A stretch of DNA of 43,576 bases, from positions 1 to 43,576 of the IMG/VR virus record IMGVR_UViG_3300041964_000017; one strand, given 5' to 3'. The stretch is from a virus. The number at the start of each line of letters is the position of its first letter. Within the stretch, counting starts at the first letter, position 1. The position numbers and the translations under genes are program-made. Below the pieces are notes generated by a model. It saw only the letters and a list, made by a program, of their open reading frames with translations. It was not told where the DNA came from and did not search any database. Positions 7,493-21,117 of the stretch are shown piece by piece.

Positions 7493-8250
7493 GCGCGCAG
7501 AAAAGGTTGTTCGACGCGATTCGCGAAGTGAAGGGCTCGCCCCTCACCCAAGCGGACGTGGACCGCATCAACAAGGCCTTCCTGCCCCCGGCAGTGGAAG
7601 TGCCGCGCGGGCTACAAACGGCCCCTGTGGCGGCCCCTGGGCGCGATTATGAGGCGCTTCTGGTCCGGGCTGCAGGTAGGAAGGCCGACGCGAAGATCAG
7701 CGCCGTAGCCGCCGCCCTGGCAAAGCACGCGCCCGTCTACGGGCAGGACGCCACGCCGGCCCGCCTGGCTGAGTTCGTGGCGCAGATCGCCAATGAGACG
7801 GGCGGCTTCTCCACCTTTGAAGAGAACCTGAATTACCGCGCGGCTCGCCTCGTGCAGGTGTGGCCGAACCGCTTTCCGAACACCGCTGCCGCCGCGCCTT
7901 ACGCGAACAATCCTGAGGCGCTGGCGAACAAAACCTATGGCGGGCGCATGGGCAATACCGAGCTCGGCGACGGGTGGCGCTTTCGCGGTCGCGGCGCGCT
8001 GCAGCTAACGGGCCGCGACAATTACCGGCGCTATGGCCGGCTGCTCAATCTTCCCCTGGAGGACAATCCCGACCTTGCGAGCGACCCTGCGGTGTCGGTC
8101 CAGATCGCGCTGGAGTTCTTCAAGCAGGCGGGCGTCAATGCCGCAATCGACCGCGGCGACTTCAGGCAGGCGCGCAAGCTCACCAACGGCGGCTATATCG
8201 GCGTCGATGAAGTGGCCCGCATCCGCAACCGGCTCCTGCAGGTGCTGTGA
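7489..8250 (+). CDS. Endolysin, glycoside hydrolase family 19 (chitinase-like)
   Basis: 253 residues from the ATG overlapping the previous stop. Residues 1-60 are a linker or cell-wall-binding extension. The catalytic domain from about 60 has the GH19 hallmarks: LAEFVAQIANETGGF with the acid Glu103, a second acidic pair at Glu111-Glu112 (FEENLNY), and FRGRGALQLTGRDNY at about 165-179. It should cleave peptidoglycan glycan strands. No signal peptide is visible, so export would depend on a holin, which fits the membrane-protein genes on both sides. Family assignment is firm; the exact bond cut is not certain. Confidence 0.9.
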   Translation: MSAQKRLFDAIREVKGSPLTQADVDRINKAFLPPAVEVPRGLQTAPVAAPGRDYEALLVRAAGRKADAKISAVAAALAKHAPVYGQDATPARLAEFVAQIANETGGFSTFEENLNYRAARLVQVWPNRFPNTAAAAPYANNPEALANKTYGGRMGNTELGDGWRFRGRGALQLTGRDNYRRYGRLLNLPLEDNPDLASDPAVSVQIALEFFKQAGVNAAIDRGDFRQARKLTNGGYIGVDEVARIRNRLLQVL

Positions 8251-8875: not shown

Positions 8876-8961
8876 GGCGGGTGGCGCTCAGCGGTGGGCA
8901 ACCGGTCCCGAAAACCGGGCTATCTGCAAGGATAGGGGTTCGACTCCTCCACCCGCCGCCA
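8876..8961 (+). tRNA. tRNA-Ser-like (anticodon CGA), 8+4 bp acceptor/T branch
   Basis: The acceptor strands 8876-8883 and 8950-8957 pair over 8 bp, followed by G73 (8958) and an encoded CCA. The D stem GCTC/GGGC is at 8886-8889 and 8896-8899. The anticodon stem CCGGT/ACCGG flanks the loop 8907-8913, with CGA at 8909-8911. A 4-bp variable arm (8921-8924 with 8931-8934) and a 4-bp T stem (8935-8938 with 8946-8949) follow, with loop TTCGACT. A conventional 7+5 fold leaves an A-C mismatch and three linker bases; the 8+4 fold pairs everything. The long variable arm and G73 are serine features. Position 33 is C instead of the nearly universal U, and position 8 is not U, so function is uncertain. 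Confidence 0.65.
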
Positions 8962-8965
8962 CATT

Positions 8966-9041
8966 GGGGAAGTAGCTCAGCGGCCAGAGCGGTTGCCCTG
9001 CAAGCAATTGGTCGAGGGTTCGAGTCCCTCCTTCTCCACCA
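8966..9041 (+). tRNA. tRNA-Ala (anticodon TGC)
   Basis: A full cloverleaf: acceptor GGGGAAG/CTTCTCC including the G3-U70 pair that marks alanine tRNAs, A73 and encoded CCA. The D stem is GCTC/GAGC, the anticodon stem GTTGC/GCAAT and the anticodon TGC at 8999-9001. The T stem is a perfect GAGGG/CCCTC. As in the neighbouring Ser-like gene, position 33 is C (8998) rather than U. It lies 4 bases after the Ser gene, so the two are probably co-transcribed. Confidence 0.8.
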
Positions 9042-9121: not shown

Positions 9122-9195
9122 GCCGGTGTAGCTCAATGGCAGAGCAGCGCTTTCGTAAGACGAAGACGGGGGTTCGATTCCTCTCGCCGGCTCCA
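9122..9195 (+). tRNA. tRNA-Thr (anticodon CGT)
   Basis: Acceptor GCCGGTG/CGCCGGC (one G-U pair), discriminator T (9192) and encoded CCA. D stem GCTC/GAGC. The anticodon loop TTCGTAA has U33 and anticodon CGT at 9154-9156. T arm GGGGG/CCTCT with two G-U pairs. The anticodon stem is weak, with a G27-A43 and a C30-A40 mismatch. The 3' end is two bases from the stop of the leftward operon (9198), so the two transcription units converge here. Confidence 0.75.
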
Positions 9196-19339: not shown

Positions 19340-19422
19340 TGGACGCACTCCGTGATGATCTTGAGAACCGGCAGCCCGTAGAAGGGCGCACCTAGGATGA
19401 GGGCTTGGAAGAGGAGCTTCAT
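19336..19422 (-). CDS. 28-residue hydrophobic micro-protein
   Basis: MKLLFQALILGAPFYGLPVL and onward. Its ATG overlaps the stop of the alanine-repeat gene upstream (ATGA), and its own TGA overlaps the next GTG. One short hydrophobic segment could insert in a membrane. Two-sided coupling is the main support. Confidence 0.45.
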   Translation of the reverse strand: MKLLFQALILGAPFYGLPVLKIITECVQ

Positions 19423-20258
19423 GCCGCAATCCTTTCGGGTAGAGCGGGAAGCGCCAGCGGCTCGGGCTCGGGGTCACTCAGCCAGGCTATGAGCTGGTCG
19501 AACTGCCACTGTTCTTCGGCGCCCCCAGCGGCGGCCCTAGCGGCGGCCCTAGCGGCGTCCCCAGCGGCGGCCCTAGCGGCGGCCCTAGCGGCGTCCCTAG
19601 CGGCGGCCCTAGCGGCGGCCCAAGCGGCGTCCCAAGCGGCGGCCCTAGCGGCGTCCCTAGCGGCGTCCCTAGCGGCGGCCCTAGCGGCGTCCCTAGCGGC
19701 GTCCCTAGCGGCGGCCCTAGCGGCGGCCCAAGCGGCGTCCCAAGCGGCGGCCCTAGCGGCGGCCCAAGCGGCGTCCCCAGCGGCGGCCCAAGCGGCGGCC
19801 CTAGCGGCGGCCCAAGCGGCGGCCCTAGCGGCGTCCCTAGCGGCGTCCCCAGCGGCGGCCCAAGCGGCGGCCCTAGCGGCGGCCCAAGCGGCGGCCCTAG
19901 CGGCGTCCCTAGCGGCGGCGTCGCTCCTGCCATCCGCGAAGTCATGGGCCGCTTGAATGGCCGCACGAACTCGCATGTCTTCCGGCCGCTCGCGCTCATA
20001 AATGTGCAGCACGCGGGCGGCACAATCGGCCATCCAGTGGCGTAGGCGGCGTTCTAGCCCTTTGTCGTTGAGCGATGCGGCAGAGGCTGCCCACACGACA
20101 TCTTCAAAGGTGCAACCGGCCTCCCGCGCCTCGGCGGCGGTGAAGCAGTGGCCCTTGTCGGCATTGAACTTGCGCAGCGCAGCGCGGACACGACGCCCGC
20201 TTTCTGCGCATGGGGACAGCTTGTTCAGCTGGGCCATCGTGATGCAGGGAGCGCTCAT
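19419..20258 (-). CDS. Alanine-repeat protein, copy 1 (32 tetrapeptide units)
   Basis: 279 residues: a 116-residue N-terminal domain, 32 four-residue units of the form [R/W/G][A/D]AA, and a 35-residue C-terminal part (GGAEEQWQFDQLIAWLSDPE...). The N-terminal domain contains AALRKFNADKGHCFTAAEAR and HWMADCAARVLHIYERERPE. Its combination with the Ala-rich helical run recalls the Imm5-type putative immunity proteins, though I hold that loosely. Each unit is 12 bp (NGG GMC GCC GCT), varying only at N and M. It is nearly identical to the next gene upstream except for unit number. Function unknown. Confidence 0.65.
   Translation of the reverse strand: MSAPCITMAQLNKLSPCAESGRRVRAALRKFNADKGHCFTAAEAREAGCTFEDVVWAASAASLNDKGLERRLRHWMADCAARVLHIYERERPEDMRVRAAIQAAHDFADGRSDAAARDAARAAAWAAARAAAWAAAGDAARDAARAAAWAAARAAAWAAAGDAAWAAARAAAWDAAWAAARAAARDAARDAARAAARDAARDAARAAAWDAAWAAARAAARDAARAAARAAAGDAARAAARAAAGGAEEQWQFDQLIAWLSDPEPEPLALPALPERIAA
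19527..19910 (-). repeat. 12-bp coding minisatellite, 32 units
   Basis: Read on the minus strand, each unit is NGG-GMC-GCC-GCT (N = A, T or G; M = C or A) and encodes Arg, Trp or Gly, then Ala or Asp, then Ala-Ala. There are no frame breaks over 384 bases. All six frames stay open across it, so the long overlapping ORFs on both strands are artefacts of the repeat. Confidence 0.85.
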
Positions 20259-20926
20259 GCTGCAATCCTTTCGGGTAGAGCGGGAAGCGCCAGCGGCTCG
20301 GGCTCGGGGTCACTCAGCCAGGCTATGAGCTGGTCGAACTGCCACTGTTCTTCGGCGCCCCCAGCGGCGGCCCTAGCGGCGGCCCTAGCGGCGTCCCCAG
20401 CGGCGTCCCTAGCGGCGGCCCTAGCGGCGGCCCAAGCGGCGTCCCAAGCGGCGGCCCTAGCGGCGGCCCAAGCGGCGTCCCCAGCGGCGGCCCAAGCGGC
20501 GGCCCTAGCGGCGGCCCAAGCGGCGGCCCTAGCGGCGTCCCTAGCGGCGTCCCCAGCGGCGGCCCAAGCGGCGGCCCTAGCGGCGGCGTCGCTCCTGCCA
20601 TCCGCGAAGTCATGGGCCGCTTGAATGGCCGCACGAACTCGCATGTCTTCCGGCCGCTCGCGCTCATAAATGTGCAGCACGCGGGCGGCACAATCGGCCA
20701 TCCAGTGGCGTAGGCGGCGTTCTAGCCCTTTGTCGTTGAGCGATGCGGCAGAGGCTGCCCACACGACATCTTCAAAGGTGCAACCGGCCTCCCGCGCCTC
20801 GGCGGCGGTGAAGCAGTGGCCCTTGTCGGCATTGAACTTGCGCAGCGCAGCGCGGACACGACGCCCGCTTTCTGCGCATGGGGACAGCTTGTTCAGCTGG
20901 GCGATCGTGATGCAGGGAGCGCTCAT
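20255..20926 (-). CDS. Alanine-repeat protein, copy 2 (18 tetrapeptide units)
   Basis: 223 residues from the ATG at 20926 (overlapping the previous stop, ATGA). Domain plan as in copy 1: 116 N-terminal residues, here with 18 repeat units, then the same 35 C-terminal residues. In the N-terminal domain I see a single amino-acid difference from copy 1 (Ile8 for Met8, one base). The length difference of 56 residues equals exactly 14 units. The pair therefore arose by a very recent tandem duplication followed or accompanied by repeat-number change. Confidence 0.65.
   Translation of the reverse strand: MSAPCITIAQLNKLSPCAESGRRVRAALRKFNADKGHCFTAAEAREAGCTFEDVVWAASAASLNDKGLERRLRHWMADCAARVLHIYERERPEDMRVRAAIQAAHDFADGRSDAAARAAAWAAAGDAARDAARAAAWAAARAAAWAAAGDAAWAAARAAAWDAAWAAARAAARDAAGDAARAAARAAAGGAEEQWQFDQLIAWLSDPEPEPLALPALPERIAA
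20363..20578 (-). repeat. 12-bp coding minisatellite, 18 units
   Basis: Same unit and same two variable positions as the 32-unit array in the neighbouring gene; 216 bases, in frame throughout. Runs of units are shared in order between the two arrays, so one derives from the other by loss or gain of blocks. Confidence 0.85.
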
Positions 20927-21117
20927 GCTGCAATCCTTTCGGGCACGATGTCGGTGACGCCCCAGCCGAAGCAGGTGTCGCACCGCACCTCACGGGCAGA
21001 GGGGTCGTTCCACTCGCCAAGGATGACCGTGCCGACCCCATCGCAGTCGAAGCACGGCTCGGTGTCGCCATCGCTGCGCTCGGTAAGGGGCAGGGTGGTG
21101 GAGAGGGGGCGGTTCAT
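20923..21117 (-). CDS. Small zinc-finger protein (half DnaJ-type)
   Basis: 64 residues. Two CxxC pairs with Gly spacing: CFDCDGVGTV (about 22-31) and CDTCFGWGVT (about 46-55). This is the CxxCxGxG pattern of a single DnaJ-type zinc module. Small proteins of this kind are frequent in phage early operons; partner unknown. The stop overlaps the ATG of the alanine-repeat copy 2. Confidence 0.6.
   Translation of the reverse strand: MNRPLSTTLPLTERSDGDTEPCFDCDGVGTVILGEWNDPSAREVRCDTCFGWGVTDIVPERIAA

Follow-up and report, generated by a model that had tools for sequence, protein, structure and literature searches.

Here we show that positions 8876 to 8961 (+ strand) of a 43,576-base virus record—the whole stretch analyzed, hereafter the window—encode a tRNA-Ser(CGA) with an 8-bp acceptor stem and a 4-bp T stem, a member of a family of 8/4 serine tRNAs that is common and diverse in phages and is often overlooked by gene finders and annotators. 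Most probably, the gene provides a functional, phage-borne supplementary serine tRNA that would be charged by the host SerRS and would read UCG codons during infection. The window carries genes for terminase, major capsid, tape measure, tail, endolysin, integrase, and primase/helicase proteins, and downstream of the endolysin gene (7510 to 8250, + strand; PHROG 181, E 1e-60) ARAGORN finds three + strand tRNA genes: the Ser(CGA) gene, also recovered by our covariance models R1 to R3, a tRNA-Ala(TGC) of conventional fold (8966 to 9041), and a tRNA-Thr(CGT) with a conventional branch (9122 to 9195). No sigma-70-like promoter was seen near the cluster, in a scan that other promoter types escape, and a terminator scan was uninformative.

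Read as an 8/4 tRNA, the gene pairs every stem completely. The 5′ strand of the acceptor stem (GGCGGGTG, 8 nt, 8876 to 8883) faces the 3′ strand (CACCCGCC, 8 nt, 8950 to 8957), giving eight pairs in the RNA (GGCGGGUG/CACCCGCC), and is followed by the two-base linker GC. The remaining parts are a D arm (8886 to 8899; stem GCUC/GGGC, loop AGCGGT in the gene; an A-U closure can lengthen the stem to 5 bp and leave the loop GCGG), an anticodon arm (8902 to 8918; stem CCGGU/ACCGG) with anticodon CGA at 8909 to 8911, a long variable arm (8919 to 8934; stem UAUC/GAUA), a T arm (8935 to 8949; stem GGGG/CUCC with one G-U pair, loop UUCGACU), and the discriminator G73 with an encoded CCA tail (8958 to 8961). 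The anticodon loop, CCCGAAA, reads C32 C33 C34 G35 A36 A37 A38, with a C at position 33 (8908) where U is normal. Forced into the 7/5 arrangement, the same sequence places A49 opposite C65 and leaves three bases (GGC) ahead of the D stem. The drawn 8/4 fold has an energy of −34.4 kcal/mol, compared to −31.1 kcal/mol for a version with a 7-bp acceptor and −29.6 kcal/mol for the mismatched 7/5 fold, an advantage of 3 to 5 kcal/mol, and the 8-65 pair forms with a probability of 0.999. The structural claims of the sequence-only reading—full pairing with a two-base linker in the 8/4 fold, a mismatch and three linker bases in the conventional one, serine type, G73, a long variable arm, and C33—are thus all borne out.

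The pairing is upheld by relatives, which we collected by permissive BLAST of phage records and by degenerate pattern scans; exact matching of window-specific strings to viral and genome contigs returned nothing, and a plasmid search gave just one weak match, in Nostoc. The phage relatives are found in Salmonella phages Arash and FSL SP-058, Escherichia phage EC106, phage 4A, Sphingobium phage Lacusarx, Streptomyces phage WRightOn, and Mycobacterium phages Sparky and Daffodil, and most of 42 pattern-matched IMG/VR contigs carry relatives too. The family therefore extends over phages of enterobacteria, Sphingobium, Streptomyces, and Mycobacterium, IMG/VR contigs, and a few alphaproteobacterial genomes, where it lies in a prophage or in tRNA arrays. 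In an alignment of 27 sequences, the window included, positions 8 and 65 pair in every one (G-C in 24, U-A in 2, G-U in 1), whereas the 49-65 pair specific to the 7/5 fold forms in 5 and is unpaired in 22. For most aligned contigs the search pattern fixed G8 and left 65 and 49 free, so the G-C count at 8-65 overstates the independence of the 5′ side; both U-A cases come from the BLAST-found set, which is free of this bias. Ten copies outside the alignment keep all eight acceptor pairs, and position 8-65 is U-A in one outside copy (L183) and A-U in another (the second copy of L130). The window itself has C3-G70, a compensated change from the A3-U70 present in 25 of the 27. Because relatives carry such compensatory changes, the 8/4 pairing stands above chance; compensation that might have backed a 7/5 fold favors 8/4 instead. 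All aligned relatives have the anticodon AGA, CGA, or TGA, and 25 of 27 have G73.

Serine identity is conferred by G73 and a long variable arm (PMC7609411, in part). Together with the UCN anticodons of the relatives, the presence of both features in the window gene points to charging by the host SerRS and decoding of UCN codons. In the mechanism that we favor, the 8/4 tRNA would keep a 12-bp acceptor/T helix, host SerRS would attach serine by way of G73 and the variable arm, EF-Tu would carry the product as it does any elongator tRNA, and the tRNA would then read UCG codons in infected cells. Work for such a tRNA exists, since UCG makes up 23% of the serine codons in 19 window ORFs. Both 8/4 and 9/3 allo-tRNAs function in E. 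coli translation, and 8/4 allo-tRNAs insert serine (PMC7609411, in part). One bacterial genome (G002) holds one 8/4 copy and a conventional tRNA-Ser(UGA), so in that genome the 8/4 gene supplements the usual set instead of replacing it. Where the sequence-only reading offered a decoding or a regulatory tRNA, decoding is the simplest reading, and we found no support for the regulatory half.

U33 is near-universal in tRNAs. Among the 27 aligned copies it is kept in 24, and C33 occurs only in the window gene, in a Xanthobacteraceae MAG (L126), and in Pseudaminobacter soli (L127); no C33 was seen in any other copy examined from phages or viral contigs. Searches with model R1 gave positives in 3 of 297 genomes from the order of G002, 8 of 297 from the family of G001, and 1 of 385 from the class, counts that include query or repeat genomes (G001, G002, and G080). 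Ten distinct Hyphomicrobiales genomic copies divide into seven with C33 (L171, L172, L178, L180, L183, L184, and L185) and three with U33 (L179, L181, and L182). One C33 copy lies inside a clear prophage (L191), judged from its translated terminase, portal, and protease-like genes; L183 to L185 belong to dense arrays of tRNA genes, and L171, L172, and L180 adjoin a Ser(GCT) gene. These copies, and the C33 of the neighboring tRNA-Ala(TGC) (loop CCTGCAA), which the sequence-only reading did not record, rule out that C33 is unique to the window gene. C33 is a lineage-specific change of the alphaproteobacterial copies, probably tolerated or locally favored. In 30 of the loci related to this phage through capsid and endolysin, ARAGORN detected no Ser/Ala/Thr cluster, so C33 is not traceable in close kin; no phage record matched the first 25 kb of the window by megablast. 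We found no description in the literature of natural C33 in phage tRNAs, of the recurrence of C33 in this alphaproteobacterial branch, or of the breadth of the phage family. The recurrence within one host group offers a testable case for the role of position 33 in natural elongator tRNAs. Alphaproteobacterial loci L186 to L190 are dense arrays of 13 to 30 tRNAs in which C33 recurs in numerous isotypes, most conspicuously in Val(GAC), Ile(GAT), Gly(GCC), and Leu(GAG). In the P. soli genome, a second tRNA cluster holds another 8/4-like sequence (L173:1501-1583, − strand) that scores 51.5 bits with R1 and is not called by ARAGORN.

C33, and perhaps the 8/4 body, could alternatively serve to evade host nucleases that cut tRNAs, with the gene mainly replacing cleaved host tRNA-Ser. 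We regard this as possible but unlikely as the main role, and it adds to the decoding explanation instead of excluding it, as the tRNA still decodes. Van den Berg et al. proposed that loop changes make phage tRNAs resistant to anticodon nucleases (PMC10264068, in part). In keeping with such a role, C33 extends across several isotypes, in 18 of 106 tRNAs from seven larger alphaproteobacterial loci holding the 8/4 tRNA-Ser family, as well as in the window tRNA-Ala, and the anticodon stem of the window tRNA-Thr is disrupted. In a larger sample of loci, 28 of 323 tRNAs have C33; both samples were picked for nearness to this family and are not a fair census. On the other side, U33 is retained in most aligned copies, this analysis identified no nuclease known to require U33 of tRNA-Ser(CGA), and the accessible part of PMC10264068 does not mention position 33. 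In the tRNA-Thr(CGT), three of five anticodon-stem pairs form, with G27-A43 and C30-A40 mismatched; the tRNA-Thr(CGT) of phage Lacusarx likewise has three of five.

The same source says that mycobacteriophages rarely encode, and hence avoid, tRNA-Ser with anticodons gga, tga, cga, and aga, which are cut inside the anticodon (PMC10264068, in part). By megablast, 125 records of phages of Mycobacterium or Mycolicibacterium contain the Daffodil copy of the 8/4 Ser(CGA) gene, 104 of them at no less than 99% identity, and in 36 of the 60 records listed the gene is unannotated. ARAGORN misses both the Daffodil and the Sparky copies; at L007:392-477, as in the 124 other phage records, an 8/4 Ser(CGA) gene adjoins Ser(GCT), and in L007 it is missed by ARAGORN. 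These 125 records are in tension with the avoidance of UCN-serine tRNAs in C1 mycobacteriophages, as presented in the accessible part of PMC10264068, and do not refute it; the inference affected is the one in which missing UCN-serine tRNAs are read as avoidance of VapC-cleaved anticodons. A bolder proposal joins these threads: C33 would be an adaptive and recurrent trait of alphaproteobacterial mobile-element tRNAs (this 8/4 tRNA-Ser, the adjoining tRNA-Ala, and roughly one tRNA in six at related loci), selected for nuclease protection or retuned decoding, and 8/4 tRNA-Ser would be a widely missed phage class that alters conclusions on codon coverage. Taken as a whole, we consider this doubtful.

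That the gene is a decaying pseudogene, with C33 as the mark of decay, appears very improbable. The near-universality of U33 and the lack of C33 in every other copy examined from phages or viral contigs would fit such decay; against it, all stems are intact, CCA is encoded, the 3-70 pair was compensated in the window lineage, and C33 is common to seven of ten Hyphomicrobiales copies of varied sequence.

An ordinary 7/5 tRNA-Ser with a single A-C mismatch in the T stem is scarcely credible. The standard model of ARAGORN does find the gene, and a 7/5 covariance model (R3) gives it 91.4 bits; the 8/4 counterpart (R2), built from the same 22 relatives with the window held out and differing in structure alone, gives 93.2 bits. 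The 1.8-bit difference is small, as expected for one pair. All 12 tested 8/4 copies prefer R2, whereas for the controls L175 and L176, both conventional tRNA-Ser, R3 scores about 5 bits higher. Model scoring of the two folds thus sides with 8/4, and the counts at 8-65 and 49-65, with their compensatory changes, largely refute the 7/5 fold. At its curated cut-off, the Rfam tRNA family finds the Ala and Thr genes and not the Ser(CGA) gene, whose best Rfam match at a permissive threshold is the tRNA-Sec family, with 34.3 bits where the cut-off is 47; both results mark the gene as structurally unusual.

That match, the 8-bp acceptor, and a D stem that an extra pair can bring to 5 bp around a 4-base loop are what might suggest a selenocysteine, suppressor, or regulatory tRNA, an identity made highly improbable by the anticodon (CGA, not UCA), the 12-bp (8/4) and not 13-bp (8/5) branch, and the serine anticodons of all aligned relatives. 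The likeness to bacterial tRNA-Sec (Rfam RF01852) is confined to the long acceptor, the long variable arm, and the compact D arm. Conventional 7/5 tRNA-Ser shares G73, the long variable arm, and a UCN anticodon with the window gene and differs in the acceptor/T split, the D arm, the paired base 8, and position 33.

Serine and histidine tRNAs of 8/4 type are reportedly used by certain bacteria and their phages. The serine members, as Mukai et al. are said to have described them in 2017, combine an 8-bp acceptor and a 4-bp T stem with a long variable arm, G73, a serine anticodon, and a phage location; the window gene shares all of these and differs by C33. The kind of tRNA is thus already reported, and the window gene adds to it. 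The accessible parts of two allo-tRNA reviews (PMC7609411 and PMC11231383) do not mention phages. The sequence-only reading likened the gene to allo-tRNAs, a label that fits loosely: the 12-bp branch split 8/4, G73, the long variable arm, and serine identity agree, whereas allo-tRNAs mostly have non-serine anticodons (PMC7609411, in part) and the 9/3 type has a 6-bp D stem with a 4-base loop (PMC11231383, in part), compared to the serine anticodon CGA and the four conserved D-stem pairs plus a possible A-U (at most 5 bp) seen here. The gene is better called an 8/4 tRNA-Ser, given its 8-65 pair, its 4-bp T stem without a 49-65 pair, and its serine identity.

The D arm is intermediate between that of conventional tRNA-Ser and the form with six stem pairs reported for allo-tRNAs and tRNA-Sec (for tRNA-Sec, PMC7609411, in part). 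Its inner stem pairs covary in the 27-sequence alignment, and the extra pair closing the four-base loop is A-U in 26 of 27; outside the alignment it is G-C or C-G in L181, L182, and L179 and A-C in L178 and L180. The usual U8-A14 contact is unavailable where base 8 belongs to the acceptor stem, and its loss may free A14 for the extra D-arm pair.

Two observations concern the surrounding phage genes. Four phage contigs found through their endolysin (L074, L076, L092, and L093) have tmRNA genes shortly downstream of it. In the window, two neighboring genes at 19419 to 20983 (− strand) both belong to PHROG 18326, and the first of them encodes a long Ala/Arg/Asp/Trp repeat of the AARDAAWAA type.
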